This document shows, piece after piece, positions 16,976 to 62,705 of a DNA stretch of 64,000 bases; positions within the stretch are counted from its first letter, which is position 1; each line of letters opens with the position of its first letter. Where the stretch lies: positions 124,001 to 188,000 of the forward strand of contig CAMNSS010000001.1 of NCBI GenBank assembly GCA_946555345.1, given 5' to 3'. The stretch is from an uncultured Eubacterium sp. Lineage in GTDB: Bacteria; Bacillota; Clostridia; Peptostreptococcales; Anaerovoracaceae. The notes under the pieces are model-generated. The model saw only the letters and a list, made by a program, of their open reading frames with translations, searched no databases and was not told where the DNA came from. Made by a program: the position numbers and the translations under genes.

Positions 16976-19855
16976 TTATGGCAAATAATTTTCAGGATTC
17001 TTTGGTTCGCCATTCACCCTGATCTCAAAGTGAAGATGCGGACCGGTACTTCTGCCTGTGTTACCCGATTCTGCGATATGCTGTCCTTGGAATACCCGTT
17101 CACCTTGGCTTACTAAAAGCTTGCTGTTATGGGCATACCGGGTTTCCATCCCATTCTGGTGGTCGATCTTAACCAAATACCCATAAGCGCCGCTATATCC
17201 TGCAAAAGTTACGACACCGCCGTCTGCCGCCATGACATCGCTTCCGGTGCTGGTCGCCAAGTCAATGCCCGCATGAAGCCTTCCCCATCTCTGCTTGAAG
17301 CCCGATGATTTCGTATACCCGCCTGATAACGGCCAAATATATTTGCCTGAACCCACCGATGGCGGTCTTTCCTTAACGCCGACCAGCGTGATCTCCGCTA
17401 CCGGCTCTTTCTTGACCGTCGTGACAAGTTCATCTTCATCAATTTGTTCCCCGTTTACCAAGGTGATGCGGGAAGTGATTTCACTCAGCCCGTTCTGTCC
17501 TTGCTGCTGCAACTCCGTATAACCTTCGTAAATATCAGCCGATTCCGTCTGCTGTTTCTCATAAGGTACTTCTTTATCATAAGTGACCTTTTCCACAATC
17601 CTTACGGTCAATATCGGTGCGACCTGCCTGATTACCAGCTTGTTTCCCACGGTCAATTTCTTTGGATCTACATTTTCATTATCCGCCAGGATTTCCTCCT
17701 CCGTCATGGAATACAATTTGGCGATATCCGCCAAAGTTTCCCCGGCTACAACCTCATGCAAGGATTCCTTTTCGCCGCTGGTGCAGAGGATATTGACCAT
17801 TTCAGCCTGTGAGGATACTTTGTTGAGATCCGTATTGCTCTTCCTTCCCTTTACATCTTCAACAATCTGAGCTTCTTCTACCTTTGCGCCTTCCTTGCCG
17901 CTCGTATACCGATCCTTAATCTCCTGCAAAACCGCCTCAGCAACTGCCTTGCTCTCGACAGCGCCCACCTTTTCGCCGTTTACATAAATTCCATATGCCT
18001 CGACATTGAGGTTGCCCATGTATGTAAGCCGCTTGAGAATATCCTCCGATGTATCGATTTTCACATCGCCAAGTACGGAAACACGCTCAAACTCGATATC
18101 ATCCCGCACATCAAGGATGACGTCGATTCCTTTGTCCTCCGTGAGTGCGCCCTGCACTAAATCCGTAATGCGGAGAACATCGTCCTTTTCCTTTACGATT
18201 CCCAATGTTTTCCCATTATAGGAATATGCATAAGCAGTATAATAATTAAACACGCCTGCCGCGCCTACCAGCGCCATGAGCACGACTGCGAAAGCCGTCA
18301 ACAGTGCAGCCTTATGCCTATCGCAAAAAGCTTTAAAAATATTGGCTTTTTTGGAAAAGGCGCTTTGCTGGTAATTCATTGCCTTTTGTTTCAGCGCCAT
18401 ATCTACAAACGCCCTGGCTTCCTCCGTCCTCTTTTCCCGTTCTTCGCGCAGCTCTTGTTTTTCCTGCTCGGTTTCAGCCTTTTTTTCCTGTTTGTCCTTG
18501 ATGCCGATAAGGTCGCGCAATGAAACATTTGGCGTTTCTTTAATTTCAGTGTTGATAGTGATACCCTGGACATTTACGATCCCGCCGCCCAGCTCCGCAT
18601 CCGCCTTGCTTTTTTCCTCCAGCCTCTTTTTCTCAAGCTTTGCGCGTGCGATCGCATCCCGTTTCGCTTTTTTTGCAAGTTCCCGCTGCTCTGCCTTGCG
18701 CAGCCGTTCTTCTCTCTTTTTCCTGGCTTTTTCCTGTCTTGCTTCGCGTTCTGCCTGTGCTTTTGCTTCCCGTTCTTCTCTTTCAGCCTTCGCCCTCGCT
18801 GCCTTTTCTGCCCGAAAAGCATGCGCCTGCTGCTCGCGGATCAAATGCTCAACCAATGATTTCTGTTTTCGCAGCTGTCTTTCGGCACGCTCCCGTTCCA
18901 CGCTCTCAAGCCTTTGGGATTTCAAGTTTTCCAGCATTTCCGCCAGTTTTTCCTGCTCGGTTTTAATCAAAAGCTGTTGCTTGGTCAACCGCTCTTGTTG
19001 CTCCTCCGCCAGCTTTCCTGTATTGACATCCGTCGCATGGGACATCATGCCCAGCATGGAATCCTGCTCTTTTTGTGCGGAAAGGAGCGCTTGTTTTGCG
19101 TTTTCCAGTTCAGCCTCCTGCTTTACAGCCGTAACCGTATCGCCGAAAAAGGATGCCGCTTCTTCCGCAGAAGCATATGCCTTGCCATCGTGGCTTCCTT
19201 CCGCAGCAGCCTTTGCGGCCGCCGCTGCTTCCGCTGCCTCTTTCGCCGCCTGCGCTCTTCTTGCTTGCCGTTCTGCTTCTTCCTGCAGCCTGGCCTGTTC
19301 CTGCCTTGCCTGCCGCTCCGCTTCCATCTCTGCGAGCGCTTTCTTTCTGGCAACTTCCCTTGCTTGTTTTTCTGCTTGGATGGCTTGCTGTCTCTTTTTC
19401 TCTGCCTCTTCCTCCATCATTGCGACACGTTTTTGCGCTTCTAAAATCTTTTGCTGCTCCTGCCTGGCCTCCATTTCCCGGCGGATCGCTTCTTCACGTT
19501 TTGCCTGCTGCTCAGCCGCATCCCGCTTTGCCTGCTCTAAAATCGCCTGTCTTGCCGCAATGATTTCATCAGTCTCCTGCAAATATATCTGCTCCGCTGT
19601 TTTCGGAACGTCCTCTTTCGCCTGGGCAGGCTTTAAAACAGCATCCTGCCCATTTCCCGACTCGCTTTGTTTCAAGGTTTCAACGCTCCTGCGCAAGCTC
19701 ACGATGCTTTCGAACATCTTACGGGCTTCCTCGTTTTGTGCGATGAATTCTTCCCTGCTCATCGGCTTCTCTGGCATCGCCTCCGGCGTTATTTTGTTTT
19801 CTGTTCGTTCAGTAGGTTGATTTTTTCTCTTGTTACTTCTCCGAAGCATTGGCAT
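16976..19855 (-). CDS. Membrane-anchored M23 peptidase with LysM, G5 and long coiled coil
   Basis: A 959-residue protein. Residues ~30-490 are a highly charged Glu/Lys/Arg/Ala coiled coil that should be cytoplasmic. One membrane helix follows (~514-540, LLTAFAVVLMALVGAAGVF). Outside come a LysM (~698-745, VVAGETLADIAKLYSM), a G5 domain (~748-828, containing VRIVEKVTYDKEVPYEKQ) and a C-terminal M23 LytM domain (~852-958). The zinc ligands are in RLHAGIDLA and HLHFEIRVNG (HxH). The enzyme should cut peptidoglycan cross-links or stem peptides at the membrane surface. The coiled coil is unusual for the family. The start lies inside the dnaD gene, overlapping it by 67 bases; AGGAG precedes two possible ATGs (19855 and 19849). 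Confidence 0.9.
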   Translation of the reverse strand: MPMLRRSNKRKNQPTERTENKITPEAMPEKPMSREEFIAQNEEARKMFESIVSLRRSVETLKQSESGNGQDAVLKPAQAKEDVPKTAEQIYLQETDEIIAARQAILEQAKRDAAEQQAKREEAIRREMEARQEQQKILEAQKRVAMMEEEAEKKRQQAIQAEKQAREVARKKALAEMEAERQARQEQARLQEEAERQARRAQAAKEAAEAAAAAKAAAEGSHDGKAYASAEEAASFFGDTVTAVKQEAELENAKQALLSAQKEQDSMLGMMSHATDVNTGKLAEEQQERLTKQQLLIKTEQEKLAEMLENLKSQRLESVERERAERQLRKQKSLVEHLIREQQAHAFRAEKAARAKAEREEREAKAQAEREARQEKARKKREERLRKAEQRELAKKAKRDAIARAKLEKKRLEEKSKADAELGGGIVNVQGITINTEIKETPNVSLRDLIGIKDKQEKKAETEQEKQELREEREKRTEEARAFVDMALKQKAMNYQQSAFSKKANIFKAFCDRHKAALLTAFAVVLMALVGAAGVFNYYTAYAYSYNGKTLGIVKEKDDVLRITDLVQGALTEDKGIDVILDVRDDIEFERVSVLGDVKIDTSEDILKRLTYMGNLNVEAYGIYVNGEKVGAVESKAVAEAVLQEIKDRYTSGKEGAKVEEAQIVEDVKGRKSNTDLNKVSSQAEMVNILCTSGEKESLHEVVAGETLADIAKLYSMTEEEILADNENVDPKKLTVGNKLVIRQVAPILTVRIVEKVTYDKEVPYEKQQTESADIYEGYTELQQQGQNGLSEITSRITLVNGEQIDEDELVTTVKKEPVAEITLVGVKERPPSVGSGKYIWPLSGGYTKSSGFKQRWGRLHAGIDLATSTGSDVMAADGGVVTFAGYSGAYGYLVKIDHQNGMETRYAHNSKLLVSQGERVFQGQHIAESGNTGRSTGPHLHFEIRVNGEPKNPENYLP

Positions 19856-44859: not shown

Positions 44860-46242
44860 TTATTGTATGTCTTCTTTCAGGATTCTGATTTCTTCTGCTA
44901 ATGTGTCGTTGGTTTTTATTTCAGAAGAAATTTTTTCGTAGGCGTGAAGGACTGTCGTATGATCCCTCCCTCCGAAGTATTCGCCGATTTTTGGAAGGGA
45001 AGAGTCGGTAAGTTCCCTGCATAAGTACATGGCTATTTGCCGCGGATGGGAAAATTCCCTTTTTCGTTTTCCTGATTCGATATCCGCAATTTTTATGTTG
45101 TATTTTTTGCATACCGTTTTCTTGATCGATTCGCATGAAATATTGAAATCGCTCGTAGCTAGTATATCATTTAAGGTTTCCCTTGCGTATTTAACGGTAA
45201 TTTTTTTGTTAAATATTTTGGAAAAGCTTATAATTCTGGTGAGGGCGCTTTCCAATTCCCTGATATTGAATTTTACTTTTTCTGCGATGAGGGCGACTAC
45301 TTCCATAATATCATCGTCGATTTCAATGTTCTGGCATTCGACATTGTGCATGAGGATCGCTACCCTCGTCTCATAGTCAGGTGGTTTGATGTCTGCCACG
45401 ATATTCCATTGGAATCTCGAACGAAGCCGTTCTTCAAGCCCGGTCAGTTTGCTCGGATGCCTGTCGCTGGAGATGACGATCTGTTTTTTTAGTTCGTAAA
45501 GGGTATTGAAGGTATGGAAAAATTCTTCTTGCGTGGAGTCCCCGTTTTCAATGAATTGAATATCGTCTATTAAGAGTACGTCTACGCTCCTGTATTTTTT
45601 CTTGAAGGAATTGGTTTTTGTGATGGAGTTTTTCGGGTCCCGCAGCGCTTGGATCAGCTCGGACATGAATGTTTCCGAAGAAACGTACAGCACTTTTAAG
45701 GATGGATTGTTCTTTAATATGTAATGCCCGATGGCATGCATCAGGTGGGTTTTCCCGAGGCCGGAATTGCCGTATAAAAATACGGGGTTGTAGACGACTG
45801 CGGGGGATTCCGCCACGGCAAGCGCTACGGCATGGGCGTAATTGTTGTTTTTGCCGACGATAAAATTATCGAAATTATATCTTGGGTTCAGTATGTATTC
45901 TTCTTTAAATTCGTTTTCCACGGCGGATTTTTGTTTTATTTTTTCCGGGGAATCTCCTGTTTTGACCGTTTCGATTTCTTTCTCTGACAGATTTTTGATT
46001 ACGACCCTGTATTTTTTGCCGTATATTGCTTCGACGGATTTTTCAAATATCGAAATATAACGGTTCATGGTCACTTCAATCAGAAATTCGTTGGATGAGG
46101 CGAAGTAAATAACGGCGGCGGATTCATCGATTTCTAAAGGGATGAGAGGAACGAACCAAGTTTTGTAGCTGATTTCAGTCACGTTATTTCTTATTTCAGA
46201 TAGGATGTCTCTCCATTTATTGTCGTCAATTTTTTTTTTCAT
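44860..46242 (-). CDS. dnaA: Chromosomal replication initiator DnaA
   Basis: 460 residues. Domain I (about 1-80, WRDILSEIRNNVTEISYKTWF) is followed by a short linker. The AAA+ domain carries Walker A GNSGLGKTHL near 160, Walker B LLIDDIQF near 224 and sensor regions. Domain IV DNA-binding motif GGRDHTTVLHAYEKI is intact. The ATG at 46242 is preceded by a TTG that is a less likely start; AGAGGAAAAATTG supplies the binding site. The promoter overlaps a DnaA box, as expected for autoregulation. Confidence 0.98.
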   Translation of the reverse strand: MKKKIDDNKWRDILSEIRNNVTEISYKTWFVPLIPLEIDESAAVIYFASSNEFLIEVTMNRYISIFEKSVEAIYGKKYRVVIKNLSEKEIETVKTGDSPEKIKQKSAVENEFKEEYILNPRYNFDNFIVGKNNNYAHAVALAVAESPAVVYNPVFLYGNSGLGKTHLMHAIGHYILKNNPSLKVLYVSSETFMSELIQALRDPKNSITKTNSFKKKYRSVDVLLIDDIQFIENGDSTQEEFFHTFNTLYELKKQIVISSDRHPSKLTGLEERLRSRFQWNIVADIKPPDYETRVAILMHNVECQNIEIDDDIMEVVALIAEKVKFNIRELESALTRIISFSKIFNKKITVKYARETLNDILATSDFNISCESIKKTVCKKYNIKIADIESGKRKREFSHPRQIAMYLCRELTDSSLPKIGEYFGGRDHTTVLHAYEKISSEIKTNDTLAEEIRILKEDIQ

Positions 46243-46273
46243 CAATTTTTCCTCTCTTTGAAACGGTCTTTAT

Positions 46274-56135: not shown

Positions 56136-56142
56136 GAAGCAA

Positions 56143-56158
56143 TGTTCTACGTGGAACA
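56143..56158. promoter_or_regulatory. parS site 2 (one mismatch in the palindrome)
   Basis: TGTTCTACGTGGAACA differs from the perfect site at 54100 by one base. It lies 8 bases after the parB stop. Confidence 0.85.
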
Positions 56159-56195
56159 GAAAGGATTCTTGCAAAACAAAAAAGGGAAAACGGCG

Positions 56196-56705
56196 ATGGA
56201 CAGTGAAAGAATCAATACCATTTTGAAAGAGGTTATAAAAGAGGCACAGGATTTAAAAATTCCTGTGCCTAAAAATGTTAATGGGAAAATCACGATTAAT
56301 CCCAGGCCGAAAAAGCGTTTTGGATGTTGTAAGCTTAAAGATAGAGAATTTCATATCGAAATAAGCGAATTTGTATTGGCAACCGATGAGAAAAAAATTA
56401 GGGGAATAATTGCGCATGAAATTCTTCATGCTTGCAAAGGCTGCCAGAACCACGGCGTTCGTTGGAAGGAGTATGCGGAAAAGATGAATGCACGATATGA
56501 TTATAATATAAAACGTGTTTCTTCTTTTCAAGAAGTAGGATTGGAAGCGGAGCAGGAGAAAACTTCTGCGGATAAAATTAAATATATTATTAAATGCCAA
56601 AAGTGCGGCAGGGAATATCCGCGGCAGCGATTCACTTGCGTGATGAAAAAAATTAATGCGTACAGATGCCAATGCGGGGGAAAATTGACGCTGATACGGA
56701 AGTAA
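56196..56705 (+). CDS. SprT-like zinc metalloprotease-domain protein
   Basis: 169 residues. The zinc site HEILH is in GIIAHEILHACKGCQNHG near 80, matching SprT-like proteins. The C-terminal zinc ribbon has CQKCGREYPRQRF and CQCGGKLTL. The ATG at 56196 follows AAAAGGGAAAAC; an earlier ATG at 56142 would place the parS site inside the coding sequence. SprT-domain proteins cut DNA-protein crosslinks in eukaryotes; bacterial roles are unclear. Confidence 0.75.
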   Translation: MDSERINTILKEVIKEAQDLKIPVPKNVNGKITINPRPKKRFGCCKLKDREFHIEISEFVLATDEKKIRGIIAHEILHACKGCQNHGVRWKEYAEKMNARYDYNIKRVSSFQEVGLEAEQEKTSADKIKYIIKCQKCGREYPRQRFTCVMKKINAYRCQCGGKLTLIRK

Positions 56706-56851
56706 TTAAATAGAGCAAGAATAAGATTAAGAAAACACTGGCTTTTTCGATTTTTTCTCAGGGATAAATCTTTTCAATATTTTCTATATAATAAACTTGA
56801 ATTATAAAATGAATAGAAAAGTGTAGCTTTTTTCTTTAAAGGAGAATAAAT

Positions 56852-57781
56852 ATGGCAATTCATAACAAGTCCCACAATAACCATGCCCTTATGGCACTTA
56901 ACAAATCGAGAAAAGATAAAACATTAAGGCATAAAACTGCGAAAGATTTTGATATACTAGATAAGGTAAAAATATCTATAAACATAATGGATTGTACCGA
57001 ATTTTTAAAGTCATTGCCTGATGAGTCAGTCCAACTCATTTGCATTGACCCGCCTTATAACTTGGAACTTGCTGGCTGGGATATTTATGATAATTATATT
57101 GAATGGGCGGCATTATGGTTAGACGAAGCATATAGAGTATTGTCCAAAAATGGAAATATGGTAATTTTTGGAGGCATTCAATTCAGGGACGTTAAGTCAG
57201 GGGACTTGATTGACATTATTCAATATGTAAGGCATGAAACAAGGTTTAAACTTATTAATACAATTATTTGGTATTATAAAAACGGTATGTCTGCACACAG
57301 ATATTTTGCGAATAGACATGAGGAAGTTATTTGGTTAGCGAAAGCTAATGATTATTATTTTGATTTGGATTCTGTTAGGATTCCGTATCCTGAAGAAGAT
57401 TTAAAGAATGCACTAAAAGATAAAAGATTGAATCCCGAAAATACAATGAAAGGGAAAAATCCAACAAATGTATGGCAAATAGGAAGATTAAATGGAAATA
57501 GCAAAGAGCGAGTAGGACACCCCACACAAAAGCCCGTAGAGATAATAGAACGTTTTGTCAAAGCGCTTTCCTATCCAGGTTCTACAGTTCTTGACTTTTT
57601 TGCAGGAAGTGGCACAACGGGAAGGGTTTGTATAACTGAGGGCAGACATTGTTTGATGTGTGATAACAACGAAGATTTAAAATTATATTTTAATAAACAT
57701 CTTGAGTTAATGGAAATCCTTGGGCAAAAAACAGAGTATATTTCCATCGAAGATATAGATAATTTTTTTAAAATGGATTAA
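56852..57781 (+). CDS. RsrI-type beta-class N6-adenine DNA methyltransferase, predicted GAATTC
   Basis: 309 residues. The catalytic DPPYNL motif (IV) near 67 precedes the SAM-binding motif FFAGSGTTGR near 249, the order of beta-class enzymes. Blocks NGMSAHRYFANRHEEVIW, KDKRLNPE, GKNPTNVWQIGRLNGNS and VGHPTQKPVEIIERFVKAL closely follow what I recall of M.RsrI, not M.EcoRI. It should methylate adenine in GAATTC and protect the host from the endonuclease encoded 29 bases downstream. Codon use is AT-rich compared with neighbours, which suggests transfer. A strong AAAGGAG precedes the start. Confidence 0.88.
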   Translation: MAIHNKSHNNHALMALNKSRKDKTLRHKTAKDFDILDKVKISINIMDCTEFLKSLPDESVQLICIDPPYNLELAGWDIYDNYIEWAALWLDEAYRVLSKNGNMVIFGGIQFRDVKSGDLIDIIQYVRHETRFKLINTIIWYYKNGMSAHRYFANRHEEVIWLAKANDYYFDLDSVRIPYPEEDLKNALKDKRLNPENTMKGKNPTNVWQIGRLNGNSKERVGHPTQKPVEIIERFVKALSYPGSTVLDFFAGSGTTGRVCITEGRHCLMCDNNEDLKLYFNKHLELMEILGQKTEYISIEDIDNFFKMD

Positions 57782-57810
57782 CGATTTAGTGGATAGGAGT
57801 TGAAGGCGAT

Positions 57811-58644
57811 ATGAAAAAAGGACAATCAAATAGATTAACAGAACAACAGAAAGAAGGGCAAGGACCTTTAACAATTTTTCACGAAGATGCAAAAATACAC
57901 GATAAGGAAGTATATAATACGTCTATTGCAGTTATGTCAAGATTAAAAGAAGAGTTTCCAAGATTGACTTTTCGATATAGAAAAGACCTTGCAAAAAAGG
58001 AAATTAACGAGGCATTGCAGAAAGTGGATCAGTATCTTGGACAAACCCTTTTCATTGAGAATGCCCGCATAATTCCAGATGGTGGATTGATTGAAGTAAA
58101 AGACGATAACGGCAACTGGCGGGTAATAATGGTATCAGAAGCAAAGCACCAGGGAAAAGATATTGAAAATATATGCAATGGTGTCCTTGTTGGAAAGAAT
58201 AAAGACCAAGACCTCATGGTAGCTGGGAATGCAATAGAAAGGGCTCATAAAAATATAAGCGAAATAGCCAATTATATGCTGGCTGAATGCTATTTCCCTT
58301 ATGTGTTGTTTTTAGAGGGTTCTAACTTTTTGACACAAGATGTTACAATTAAAAGGCCTGACGGCAGGGAGGTAACATTAACTTACAATAATGGAGCGCT
58401 TAATCGGCTAGACAGGCTTACAGCCTCAAATTACGGAATGCCAATCAATACAAACCTATGTGCAAATAGATTTGTGCAATGCAATGGTTTAACTATAATG
58501 TTGCAAGCAGCTTCAATTTATACCAAAGGAGAAGGCGGGCATTGGAATGACGGTGATATGATTGAAATTATGCTTGAAATCTCACGAACAGCTCTAAAAA
58601 TATTGGGATCTGACTTATTTAATCAACTTACTATTTCCGAATAA
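57811..58644 (+). CDS. EcoRI-family type II restriction endonuclease, predicted GAATTC
   Basis: 277 residues, the EcoRI length. It is clearly homologous by eye along its whole length: QSNRLTEQ, SEAKHQGKDIEN, AGNAIERAHKNISEIAN, LFLEGSNFLT and LNRLDRLTASNYGMPIN match EcoRI almost word for word. The catalytic set PDGG, EVK and EAK (D90, E110, K112 here) corresponds to EcoRI D91, E111 and K113. The sequence-reading E143-R144 and R199 are kept. It should cut GAATTC after the G. It follows the methylase gene, and is AT-rich. No frameshift or missing key residue is seen. Confidence 0.93.
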   Translation: MKKGQSNRLTEQQKEGQGPLTIFHEDAKIHDKEVYNTSIAVMSRLKEEFPRLTFRYRKDLAKKEINEALQKVDQYLGQTLFIENARIIPDGGLIEVKDDNGNWRVIMVSEAKHQGKDIENICNGVLVGKNKDQDLMVAGNAIERAHKNISEIANYMLAECYFPYVLFLEGSNFLTQDVTIKRPDGREVTLTYNNGALNRLDRLTASNYGMPINTNLCANRFVQCNGLTIMLQAASIYTKGEGGHWNDGDMIEIMLEISRTALKILGSDLFNQLTISE

Positions 58645-58670
58645 GTATTCATACATATCTGGATCATATA

Positions 58671-58699
58671 AAAACATCGTAGCAATGCGGTGTTTTTTT
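58671..58699 (+). terminator. Terminator of the restriction endonuclease gene
   Basis: AAAACATCG pairs with CGGTGTTTT (one G-T pair) around 8 bases, followed by a run of T. It starts about 26 bases after the stop. Confidence 0.75.
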
Positions 58700-59024
58700 G
58701 CAGTATATTTACAATTTAATACAGAATTGTAAATTAGCATAAATATTTTGTAAAGTCTTTTATATTAACAAAGCCTGATTTTAGCAGAATAGCGGAGAAT
58801 TTAGATTTGTTCTGTAGAAAGCATTGTTTAGAATGGAATAAGAGTGTATTTCAAATAGTCACTGAATAATCGGGAACATCGTAAACTTCTTTATTAAAAA
58901 GAAATCAAATGAATATATTGTATAACGCAAATCAAATACAATATAACATTATCACATTAAAGCGTAACCACGTCAGAGAGTTGCTAATTTTCAAAAAATA
59001 GTGGCAGTTTCACCGTATTTTAGG

Positions 59025-59071
59025 TATAATTGAAGGACAAATCAAAACGTGATAATAAAATCAAAATGTGA
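59025..59071 (+). promoter_or_regulatory. Candidate hut promoter and direct-repeat operator
   Basis: TATAAT at 59025-59030 has no clear -35. Just after it, ATCAAAACGTGA (59041-59052) and ATCAAAATGTGA (59060-59071) form a 12-base direct repeat spaced 19 bases. This could be a regulator site, but no regulator gene is in the window. Confidence 0.35.
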
Positions 59072-59141
59072 AATGAAATATAAAAAATAATATTCCGTAA
59101 CGGCATATTTTGAAATTTTTTATAAGAAAAGGAGATACGGC

Positions 59142-60668
59142 ATGGCGATCATGATCAACGGAAAGACGCTTACAGTTGAAGAAGTGATAATGGTTTGCAA
59201 ATACGGCGAACAGGTTGGTATCACGGAAGATGCCCAGAGAGCCGTGAAAAAAGCACGGGATTACGTGGAATGGAAGCTGGACGAAGGCGCGGTCATTTAC
59301 GGGTTGACGACCGGGTTTGGAAAATTTTCAGATACGTTCGTGTCCAGGGAAGAAACAGCGGAATTACAGAGAAACCTTATCATAAGCCATACTTGCGCGA
59401 TGGGCGAGCCTTTGCCAAAGCATGTCGTGCGGGCGATCATGCTCTTGCGTTGCAACGCCCTTGCCAGGGGAAATTCCGGGATTAGGCCGAGTACGTTAAA
59501 AACTTTAATGGATATGCTGAATAAAGGCGTTCACCCGCAAATTCCCGAAAAAGGGTCGCTGGGAGCAAGCGGTGATTTAGCGCCGCTTTCCCATATGGTA
59601 TTGACTATGATCGGCGAAGGGGAAGCGGAATACCAAGGAACGGTTATGCCAGCAAAAATGGCAATGGAAAAAGCCGGAATTTCAACGATAGAACTAGCGG
59701 CCAAGGAAGGCTTGGCGCTCATCAACGGGACGCAGGTGATGACGGCGATCGGCATCAATGCCCTGTACGATGCGATCAATCTTGCCAAGACCGCAGATAT
59801 CGCGGCGGCTATGACGGCGGAAGCGCTGCATGGCATCAGGAAGGCTTATGATTTAAAAGTACATGCGGCAAGGGGACACCAAGGGCAGATCGATACGGCG
59901 AGGAATATGCGAAAGCTCCTAAAAGGAAGCAAAAACGTCCGCAATGTAAATCCAAATAAAGTGCAAGACCCGTATTCCCTAAGATGCGTGCCGCAGGTGC
60001 ATGGCGCATCGAGGGATGCGATCAAATACGTATACGATGCAGTATCGAGGGAAATCAATGCGGTAACGGACAATCCGCTGATTTTCCCGGATCAGGACGA
60101 GGTAATTTCCGGCGGGAATTTCCACGGGCAACCAATGGCGCTGGCCTTTGATTTCCTGAAACTGGCAACGGCTGAGCTTGCGAACATTTCCGAGCGGAGG
60201 AGCGAGCGGCTGATCAACCCGCAGCTTTCCGAAGGGCTTGCGCCGTTTCTCACCAAGTATGGCGGCGTTTGCTCTGGTTTTATGATCGCCCAGTATGCGG
60301 CGGCGTCCATGGTATCCGAAAACAAAATATATGCGCACCCGGCCTCTGTGGATTCCATTCCATCTTCGGGAAACCAGGAGGATCACGTCAGCATGGGAAC
60401 GACAGCGGCGAGGACGGCAGCGTTGATCGTCGATAATGTGCAAAAGGTGCTGGGGATCGAACTTTTCGCAGCGTCACAGGCGATCTGGCTTCGGGGGGAG
60501 AAAGGCCTTGCGACAGCAACCCAGGCTGTCTATGATCGTATCAGGGAATCGGTAGATCCGATAGAGCGGGATGTGGTCATGCATTTTGAACTGAAAAAAT
60601 TTGACGAAATGATAAAATCGAATGAAATCGTTGACCTCGTGGAATCGGTCATTGGTTTACTAAAATAG
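59142..60668 (+). CDS. hutH: Histidine ammonia-lyase
   Basis: 508 residues. The ASG tripeptide that forms the MIO cofactor is in GSLGASGDLAPLSHM near 143. The catalytic tyrosine region is YGLTTGFGKFSDT. It converts histidine to urocanate and ammonia. AAAAGGAG lies 7 bases before the ATG. The hutU gene follows after 12 bases. Confidence 0.96.
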   Translation: MAIMINGKTLTVEEVIMVCKYGEQVGITEDAQRAVKKARDYVEWKLDEGAVIYGLTTGFGKFSDTFVSREETAELQRNLIISHTCAMGEPLPKHVVRAIMLLRCNALARGNSGIRPSTLKTLMDMLNKGVHPQIPEKGSLGASGDLAPLSHMVLTMIGEGEAEYQGTVMPAKMAMEKAGISTIELAAKEGLALINGTQVMTAIGINALYDAINLAKTADIAAAMTAEALHGIRKAYDLKVHAARGHQGQIDTARNMRKLLKGSKNVRNVNPNKVQDPYSLRCVPQVHGASRDAIKYVYDAVSREINAVTDNPLIFPDQDEVISGGNFHGQPMALAFDFLKLATAELANISERRSERLINPQLSEGLAPFLTKYGGVCSGFMIAQYAAASMVSENKIYAHPASVDSIPSSGNQEDHVSMGTTAARTAALIVDNVQKVLGIELFAASQAIWLRGEKGLATATQAVYDRIRESVDPIERDVVMHFELKKFDEMIKSNEIVDLVESVIGLLK

Positions 60669-60680
60669 GAGGAGAGGAAT

Positions 60681-62705
60681 ATGTTAGACAATAAAACGAT
60701 TTTCGACGCCATGACGATCAAGCTGGACGACGAACTCCCAGCATATCCGCAGTTTGTCAAAGGCATAAGAAGAGCGCCGGACAGGGGATTCCGGCTTACC
60801 AAAGAACAGACGAAAATCGCCTTAAAGAACGCTTTGCGGTATGTGCCGGAAAGCTTGCATGAAACGCTTGCGCCTGAATTTATGGAAGAGCTGAAAACGT
60901 ATGGCAGGATCTATGCTTACCGCTACCGGCCGGAAGGGCGCATCTATGGAAAGCCGATTATGGAGTACAAGGGTAAATGCCTTGAAGGCAAAGCGTTTCA
61001 GGTGATGATCGACAACAACCTGGATTTTGAAATCGCACTCTATCCGTATGAGCTGGTTACGTACGGTGAAACGGGACAGCCTTGCCAGAACTGGCTGCAA
61101 TACAGGCTAATCAAAAAATATTTGGAAGAATTGACGCAGGAACAGACGCTGGTAATCGAATCAGGGCATCCGCTGGGATTGTTCCCGTCTAAGCCGGAAG
61201 CGCCGCGGGTTATCATCACGAATGCATTGATGGTCGGGATGTTTGATAACCTGGACGACTGGGAAATTGCAGAGGAAATGGGCGTTGCCAACTACGGGCA
61301 GATGACGGCGGGCGGCTGGATGTACATAGGGCCGCAGGGAATCGTCCACGGCACGTTTAACACGATATTGAACGCAGGGAGGAAATACCTGGGCATACCG
61401 GAGCAGGGGGATTTATCTGGGTATACCTTCGTATCATCAGGGCTTGGCGGCATGAGCGGCGCACAGCCAAAAGCCGCCAACATCGCAAATGCTGTCGGCA
61501 TTTTTGCAGAGGTGGACAGATCCCGAATCGAGACGAGGCATAAACAGGGCTGGGTTGATGTGATCTGTGAGGATCTCAATGAAGTGTTTCGGCTGGCGAG
61601 CGAAAAGCTGGCTGCAGAAGAGAGCGTTTCTATTGCATATTGGGGAAATATCGTGGACTTGCTGGAGACGGCAGTAGAGCGGAATTTTCATATCGACCTC
61701 CTGTCGGACCAGACTTCCTGCCACAACGTATATAACGGCGGATATTGCCCGGTGGGGCTGACCTTCCAGAAGAGGACGGAAATGCTCCATAAGGACAGGA
61801 CGATGTTCCGCGAGATGGTGGATCACTCGCTCAGAAGGCATTACGAGGCGATCAAGACGCTGACCGGGCGGGGGACGTACTTCTTCGATTATGGTAATTC
61901 CTTCATGAAGGCGATGTATGACGCTGGCGTAAAGGAGATTTCAAAGAACGGGCATGACGAAAAGGACGGGTTCATATGGCCGTCCTACGTCGAGGACATT
62001 ATGGGGCCGATGCTGTTCGATTATGGATACGGCCCGTTCCGCTGGGTATGCCTTTCCGGCAATCCGGCGGATCTGGATGCGACGGATCAGGCTGCGATGG
62101 ACTGCATCGATCCAGGCAGGCGGTTCCAGGACCGGGATAACTGGGTCTGGATCAGGGATGCGAAGAAAAACAAAATGGTGGTCGGGACGCAGGCGAGGAT
62201 TCTCTACCAGGATGCCGAAGGCCGGGTGCGGATTGCACTCAAATTTAATGAGCTGGTACGGAAGGGAAAAATCGGGCCGGTGATGCTGGGAAGGGATCAT
62301 CACGATGTGAGCGGCACGGATTCCCCATTCCGGGAAACAGCGAATATCAAAGATGGCAGCAACGTGATGGCGGACATGGCGACGCAGTGCTTTGCAGGAA
62401 ATGCAGCAAGGGGCATGAGCTTGTGCGCTTTGCATAACGGCGGCGGCGTAGGCATCGGCAAAGCGATCAACGGCGGGTTCGGCCTTGTGCTGGATGGAAG
62501 CGGGCGCGTTGACAATATCATCAAATCGGCGATGATGTGGGATGTCATGGGCGGCGTTGCCAGGAGGAACTGGGCGAGAAACGAAAATGCGTTGCAGACG
62601 TCCGTGGCGTACAACAACAATTATCAGGGAGCGGGGCATATCACCATCCCGTTCGTGGCGGACGATGCGTTGGTAGAGCAGACCGTTTCAAAATTTGTCA
62701 AATAG
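60681..62705 (+). CDS. hutU: Urocanate hydratase
   Basis: 674 residues. This is the longer form, in contrast to the ~555-residue Bacillus HutU. The NAD-binding stretch is SSGLGGMSGAQPK, and DQTSCHNVYNGGYCPVG carries the conserved cysteine. It converts urocanate to imidazolonepropionate using NAD as electrophile. TAGGAGGAG precedes the ATG, 12 bases after hutH. The C-terminus is rich in Gly and Asn and intact (NAARGMSLCALHNGGGVGIG). Confidence 0.93.
   Translation: MLDNKTIFDAMTIKLDDELPAYPQFVKGIRRAPDRGFRLTKEQTKIALKNALRYVPESLHETLAPEFMEELKTYGRIYAYRYRPEGRIYGKPIMEYKGKCLEGKAFQVMIDNNLDFEIALYPYELVTYGETGQPCQNWLQYRLIKKYLEELTQEQTLVIESGHPLGLFPSKPEAPRVIITNALMVGMFDNLDDWEIAEEMGVANYGQMTAGGWMYIGPQGIVHGTFNTILNAGRKYLGIPEQGDLSGYTFVSSGLGGMSGAQPKAANIANAVGIFAEVDRSRIETRHKQGWVDVICEDLNEVFRLASEKLAAEESVSIAYWGNIVDLLETAVERNFHIDLLSDQTSCHNVYNGGYCPVGLTFQKRTEMLHKDRTMFREMVDHSLRRHYEAIKTLTGRGTYFFDYGNSFMKAMYDAGVKEISKNGHDEKDGFIWPSYVEDIMGPMLFDYGYGPFRWVCLSGNPADLDATDQAAMDCIDPGRRFQDRDNWVWIRDAKKNKMVVGTQARILYQDAEGRVRIALKFNELVRKGKIGPVMLGRDHHDVSGTDSPFRETANIKDGSNVMADMATQCFAGNAARGMSLCALHNGGGVGIGKAINGGFGLVLDGSGRVDNIIKSAMMWDVMGGVARRNWARNENALQTSVAYNNNYQGAGHITIPFVADDALVEQTVSKFVK

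Follow-up and report, generated by a model that had tools for sequence, protein, structure and literature searches.

Two adjacent genes near the replication origin of an uncultured Eubacterium sp. very likely constitute a Type II restriction-modification pair of the RsrI type, presumably directed at GAATTC, which arrived as a segment of about 2.2 kb after this lineage had split from the sampled relatives. The pair was analyzed within a stretch of 64,000 nucleotides, hereafter called the window. It is a further RsrI-type system and therefore of an already known kind; what it offers is one well-bounded, apparently recently acquired, predicted GAATTC system with empty sites in two relatives.

The methylase and endonuclease genes

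The methylase gene (M, 56852..57781) encodes a beta-class adenine DNA methylase of M.RsrI type with 309 aa, and the endonuclease gene (R, 57811..58644) an EcoRI-family restriction endonuclease with 277 aa. Both open reading frames lie on the + strand, M first, with a spacing of 29 bp.

Judged by its sequence, the endonuclease is a member of the EcoRI family (PF02963). The Pfam profile was matched with E=2e-139 by residues 17-272, covering profile positions 2-257 of 257, and the best solved chains were those of EcoRI (2oxv/1ckq; E=8e-114, residues 3-274). Among 23 active-site and recognition-region positions compared, 20 were identical to EcoRI, the differences being A138V, E192T and S195N. The catalytic D91, E111 and K113 of EcoRI were all aligned and identical in R, as were all seven residues of the set taken here to carry recognition (Q115, M137, N141, A142, R145, R200 and R203), with Val at the neighbouring position 138. 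Hence the original prediction of a full-length EcoRI match keeping the catalytic D/E/K set and the recognition residues was borne out, Ala being replaced by V138. The family is widespread: 5,365 of 5,965 candidates from a large protein collection scored E<=0.001.

The methylase matched Pfam PF01555 (N6_N4_Mtase) with E=1.8e-53 and the PADLOC Type II methyltransferase PDLC03327 with E=2e-101. Its best solved chain was M.RsrI (1eg2; E=1.9e-97, residues 5-291 of 309), 153 of 286 aligned residues being identical, and the next solved protein other than M.RsrI reached E=2.8e-36. The motifs DPPY (residues 66-69) and FFAGSG (249-254) could be read in M, and DPPY before FxGxG is the order that defines the beta class. 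By contrast with PF01555, no Pfam match to EcoRI_methylase (PF13651) was found in M at E up to 0.1, and M.EcoRI of plasmid pCol-4 gave no blastp match to it at E 1e-3. The partner had been proposed to be of RsrI type and not M.EcoRI, and this assignment holds. Such methylases are common, with at least 4,931 proteins at E<=0.001 among the 7,999 candidates listed from a large protein collection; in the other 48 genus genomes no orphan RsrI-type M was found, the best match having 38% identity over 141 residues.

The pair resembles the RsrI system of Rhodobacter sphaeroides in joining an EcoRI-family endonuclease to a beta-class M.RsrI methylase and in its expected site, GAATTC; the comparison covers the methylase sequence, which is 53.5% identical to M.RsrI. 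PMC4081073 gives R.RsrI as about 50% identical to EcoRI and both enzymes as cutting G^AATTC. The EcoRI system of E. coli plasmids is close in its endonuclease, with 64.7% identity between R and the pCol-4 copy across 272 residues, but it differs in its methylase (PF13651, unrelated to the PF01555 of the window), in its gene order (R-M versus M-R in the window) and in its location (plasmid versus chromosomal near dnaA). PMC12707154 describes, for the EcoRI system, this opposite gene order together with antisense control; since the order is opposite, such control is not simply transferable to the window pair.

GAATTC is very probably the specificity of the pair, on the strength of these sequence likenesses. 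In the working that we propose, M, as the first gene of a putative operon, would most likely methylate the N6 of the inner adenine (GAm6ATTC), and R would most likely act as a dimer in the manner of EcoRI, cutting G^AATTC wherever the site is unmethylated. The distance between M and R matches was 19-46 bp in 27 of the 29 loci carrying only an upstream RsrI-type M, window included, and 233 and 1,244 bp in the other two. A controller-type HTH regulator gene was sought in the sprT-M and R-hutH gaps, neither of which has a + strand ORF of at least 60 aa. A promoter scan was uninformative (16 found, 12.0 expected), and the terminator-like sites (4 found, 1.3 expected) all lay on the - strand.

Because of V138, the cut set of R could by analogy exceed GAATTC. 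According to PMC11755562, where Q115, A138, H114 and N141 are named for EcoRI, the A138T variant is promiscuous: it binds the cognate site tightly and shows more star activity at AAATTC. Across 87 compared loci, Val stood at this position in 14 (the window and 13 others), Ala in 62, one of six other residues in 10 and a gap in one. An endonuclease that is present but has a loosened or altered specificity, such as GAATTC plus AAATTC, is nevertheless unlikely: 20 of the 23 positions equal those of EcoRI, the recurrence of Val138 in 14 loci indicates that it is tolerated, and a methylase limited to GAATTC would leave star sites open, which would select against strong relaxation. That R is silent or inactive, leaving the locus a lone methylase, we consider most improbable. 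The methylation state of GAATTC sites is not readable from sequence and nothing direct speaks for a silent endonuclease, whereas the intact frame of 277 aa and the conserved D91, E111 and K113 speak against it. A GAATTC-directed pair, presumably active, is the preferred reading.

Probable acquisition of the inserted segment

The pair occupies a segment of about 2.2 kb (56706..58929, no strand assigned) that two same-genus genomes lack at their sprT-hutH junction. It is preceded by the flanking host gene for a SprT-like protein (56142..56705, + strand; Pfam PF10263, E=4e-10), which lies between parB and hutH also in the genomes G127 and G162, and followed by hutH, the host gene for histidine ammonia-lyase (59142..60668, + strand; NCBIfam TIGR01225 above cut-off), with urocanase (60681-62705) downstream of the latter. 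The gene dnaA (44863..46245, - strand; Pfam Bac_DnaA, E=3e-69) marks the origin side at about 10.6 kb from the M gene, and dnaN, gyrB, a YidC-family gene, mnmG and a Noc/ParB-like gene likewise lie upstream of the pair within the window. The location between a SprT-like gene and hut and the origin region had both been predicted, and these matches agree with them.

In G127 and G162, both of which are without R, parB, sprT and hutH are consecutive, with sprT and hutH matches 229 and 192 bp apart versus 2,439 bp in the window. In these genomes, similarity to the region preceding hutH in the window restarts no more than about 10-50 bp after the sprT match ends, and the right boundary of the insert falls within 58880-58940, the restart lying at 58881 to 58938 depending on genome and method. 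This synteny test covers two genomes, as only 9 of 31 genomes of the genus gave sprT matches (E 1e-8) and some of these were fragments. The pair was described beforehand as AT-rich, and the G+C content of the insert is indeed 33.3% compared with 45.6% for the window. Similarly, GC3 was 0.29 for M and 0.30 for R, against 0.40 for sprT, 0.42 for parB, 0.49 for mnmG, 0.58 for hutH and 0.67 for urocanase. With the genome of the window counted each time, R was present in 1 of 49 genomes of the genus, 1 of 197 of the family and 2 of 398 of the phylum. The empty sites of G127 and G162, the low G+C and the rarity of R in the genus thus favour the suggested arrival by transfer. This segment of about 2.2 kb would have brought the pair into the sprT-hutH interval close to the origin, after the split from the sampled relatives.

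The nearest named relative was found in Erysipelotrichales bacterium C59_1 (locus L005), with R 95% and M 91% identical and with equal order and spacing. In L005 the pair is followed by genes for rolling-circle replication (Rep_trans) and for a Tn916-type integrase, and a 69-aa HTH gene directly precedes M; the window insert has neither. This analogy suggests a Tn916-type element as the possible vehicle of the window pair. No mobile-element gene, integrase included, was found in the window insert, and flanking repeats of at least 11 nt at the insert ends were not convincing, the best near the ends being 26 nt at 77%. Neither non-coding flank of the insert gave a match at E 0.01 among 180 compared loci, and a search of 56706-59141 for an M.EcoRI-like remnant partner gave no match better than E=1. 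There was little link with phage, 1 of 50,697 phage records having a match; 7 viral contigs encode a relative.

Scarcity of GAATTC

GAATTC occurs four times in the window, while 36.1 (sd 6.0) occurrences were expected from dinucleotide shuffles. The original prediction gave at least four sites, at 19745, 26360, 29121 and 34620; the positions are exact, but "at least" understates the scarcity, these being the only four in the window. The whole genome (2.85 Mb) carries 184 sites, or 65 per Mb, versus about 440-600 per Mb in four same-genus kin. A sample of 464 kb from this genome, made up of the window and stretches totalling 400 kb, contained 34 sites where 169 were expected (0.20). For six genomes of the same genus, 400 kb contained 155 where 169 were expected (0.92), the kin stretches coming mostly from contigs with known origin-side genes and hence not being a random sample. 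Eight of the 34 sites lie in one 20-kb stretch (L146; G000 C2:1-20000), as in a recently acquired island.

The shortage was not particular to GAATTC. Ten of 64 palindromes were more depleted by the second-order estimate and at least seven by the highest-order estimate, among the 36 listed there, and GAATTC ranked 13th by drop versus kin. Found and expected numbers in the 464 kb were 7 and 236 for GGATCC, 3 and 55 for GTGCAC, 2 and 89 for GGGCCC and 11 and 81 for CTTAAG. This last palindrome, the reversed control, fell along with GAATTC in the whole genome (76 versus 477-665 in four same-genus kin). We thus rejected GAATTC scarcity as proof of the activity of the pair, ten palindromes being scarcer and the CTTAAG control dropping as much. 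As the shortage is common to many palindromes, the four sites say nothing specific about the window pair. Methylase-domain matches numbered nine for PF01555 (2-7 in seven kin) and nine for PF00145 (0-3), where matches differ from gene counts, some genes giving two, and the genome of the window is larger than those of the kin. The broad avoidance fits a lineage of many restriction systems, past or present, and neither dates nor proves the pair; according to PMC4687349, avoidance resembles in some cases the trace of lost systems.

The shortage also bears on whether the lineage has long had the pair, with the relatives losing it, or has gained it recently. Strong site avoidance is linked to long residence in the same publication (PMC4687349), and 34 sites against 169 expected is a strong scarcity. 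We regard an old pair as very unlikely all the same, for R occurs in only 1 of 49 genus genomes, the insert is low in G+C, and the ten scarcer palindromes point to another cause of the scarcity. About 25 kb beyond the pair, on the same contig but outside the window, an M.EcoRI-family (PF13651) gene lies over two frames (C1:208120-209230; L143:18120-19230). It is 44-49% identical to M.EcoRI and is followed by an HNH-domain fragment, and in the 60 kb around it no match to an R remnant was better than E=0.25. The frame break is either genuine or an error of assembly. This split gene could be the leftover of a former system that methylated GAATTC, and could have contributed to the GAATTC shortage. 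PF13651 matches are found also in the genus genomes G630 and G216, both without R, and with the identity of only 44-49% the family need not mean GAATTC here.

Two methylase types around EcoRI-family endonucleases

A scan of a genome collection confirmed 149 loci with an R relative. The 80 most similar ones were retained, so that the sample leans to the kind of the window. The 87 rows compared comprise these 80 loci, the window, L101 and five plasmid records (L094-L098) out of 19; neither a distant Paracoccus record (L099) nor a split Helicobacter phage record (L100) was included. Methylases were called from matches of at least 150 bits within 2.5 kb of R on the same strand. An EcoRI-type methylase alone was present in 40 rows, an RsrI-type alone in 36, both in 8 and neither in 3. 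The EcoRI-type methylase was downstream in all 40 rows having it alone, while the RsrI-type was upstream in 29 and downstream in 6, with one orientation artefact (L101, which has an R identical to that of L016 and a contig of equal length, and is probably the same record). The emphasis first laid on the pairing has thus to be corrected: the partner is of RsrI type as stated, but the combination is not odd, being the standard RsrI arrangement seen with an RsrI-type methylase alone in 36 of the 87 rows. Among the rows with neither methylase, L021 and L070 lie at contig ends and L024 keeps a 78-residue M piece. In the latter (L024:5741-6822) the open-frame endonuclease has Val at position 142 beside this RsrI-type remnant, the guardian methylase being apparently absent at the locus.

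In L006, L007, L027 and L054, R is flanked by two open-frame methylases with DPPY and NPPF motifs, the first of L007 lacking about 14 N-terminal residues; profile matches support the methylases of L006 and L054 and the second methylase of L007. The Lachnospiraceae loci L006, L007 and L027 are like the window in having an RsrI-type M directly upstream of an EcoRI-family R, and unlike it in having an open-frame EcoRI-type methylase directly downstream. A longer order, RsrI-type M, further methylase, R and EcoRI-type M, was found in L049, L056, L058 and L073 (partly from matches for L058, wholly for L073), and the further methylase is PF01555 in L049, the one locus profile-scanned for it.

The state with both methylases required six changes on the unrooted maximum-likelihood tree and likewise over the 5-95% bootstrap range, from a bootstrap that had not settled. 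Between EcoRI-type only and RsrI-type only, at least three changes were needed on the maximum-likelihood tree and four in a quick tree. As the tree is unrooted, the direction of methylase change is not readable. Closely related cassettes with different surroundings were also found: L073 and L062 have R and the EcoRI-type M in common at 95.7% DNA identity, and L049 and L047 at 81.7%, in both cases with no upstream match (E 1e-10). Similarly, L033 lies inside the EcoRI-type branch, as sister of L043 (support 98/83), yet carries only an RsrI-type M. No match to an EcoRI-type M better than E=0.5 was found in the 6 kb downstream of its R, and its 1,244-bp M-R gap holds another methylase gene.

These arrangements fit a switching of EcoRI-family endonucleases between two unrelated methylases, with the M-R-M loci as candidate doubly protected intermediates. 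They touch the question of how a restriction system replaces its protective methylase without killing the host: one EcoRI-family endonuclease between two unrelated methylases would be a candidate safe intermediate. Alternatively, the second methylase might be active on single strands or at a different site, or be part of an adjoining system, or an R-M cassette may just have inserted next to a further methylase. We put forward only tentatively the joint proposal that the swap passes through doubly protected M-R-M states and that the genome of the window, with its recently gained RsrI-type pair and an M.EcoRI-family gene in possible decay, is perhaps on that path. The swap is open to testing through near-identical R-M cassettes, some having the second methylase and others lacking it. 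Among the titles listed in searches of the open-access literature, none dealt with EcoRI-type and RsrI-type methylases around one endonuclease.

Three further records showed other arrangements. On a Paracoccus plasmid (L099:1106-2976), a distant EcoRI relative (28%) lies beside a third methylase type, MethyltransfD12. In the Helicobacter phage Pt11509_1 (L100:3001-4443), an EcoRI-family endonuclease and a methylase are annotated as short or split frames. Finally, a Rhodococcus plasmid (L096:2495-5819) carries an endonuclease, an EcoRI-type methylase and then a GmrSD_N protein, annotated as DUF262.
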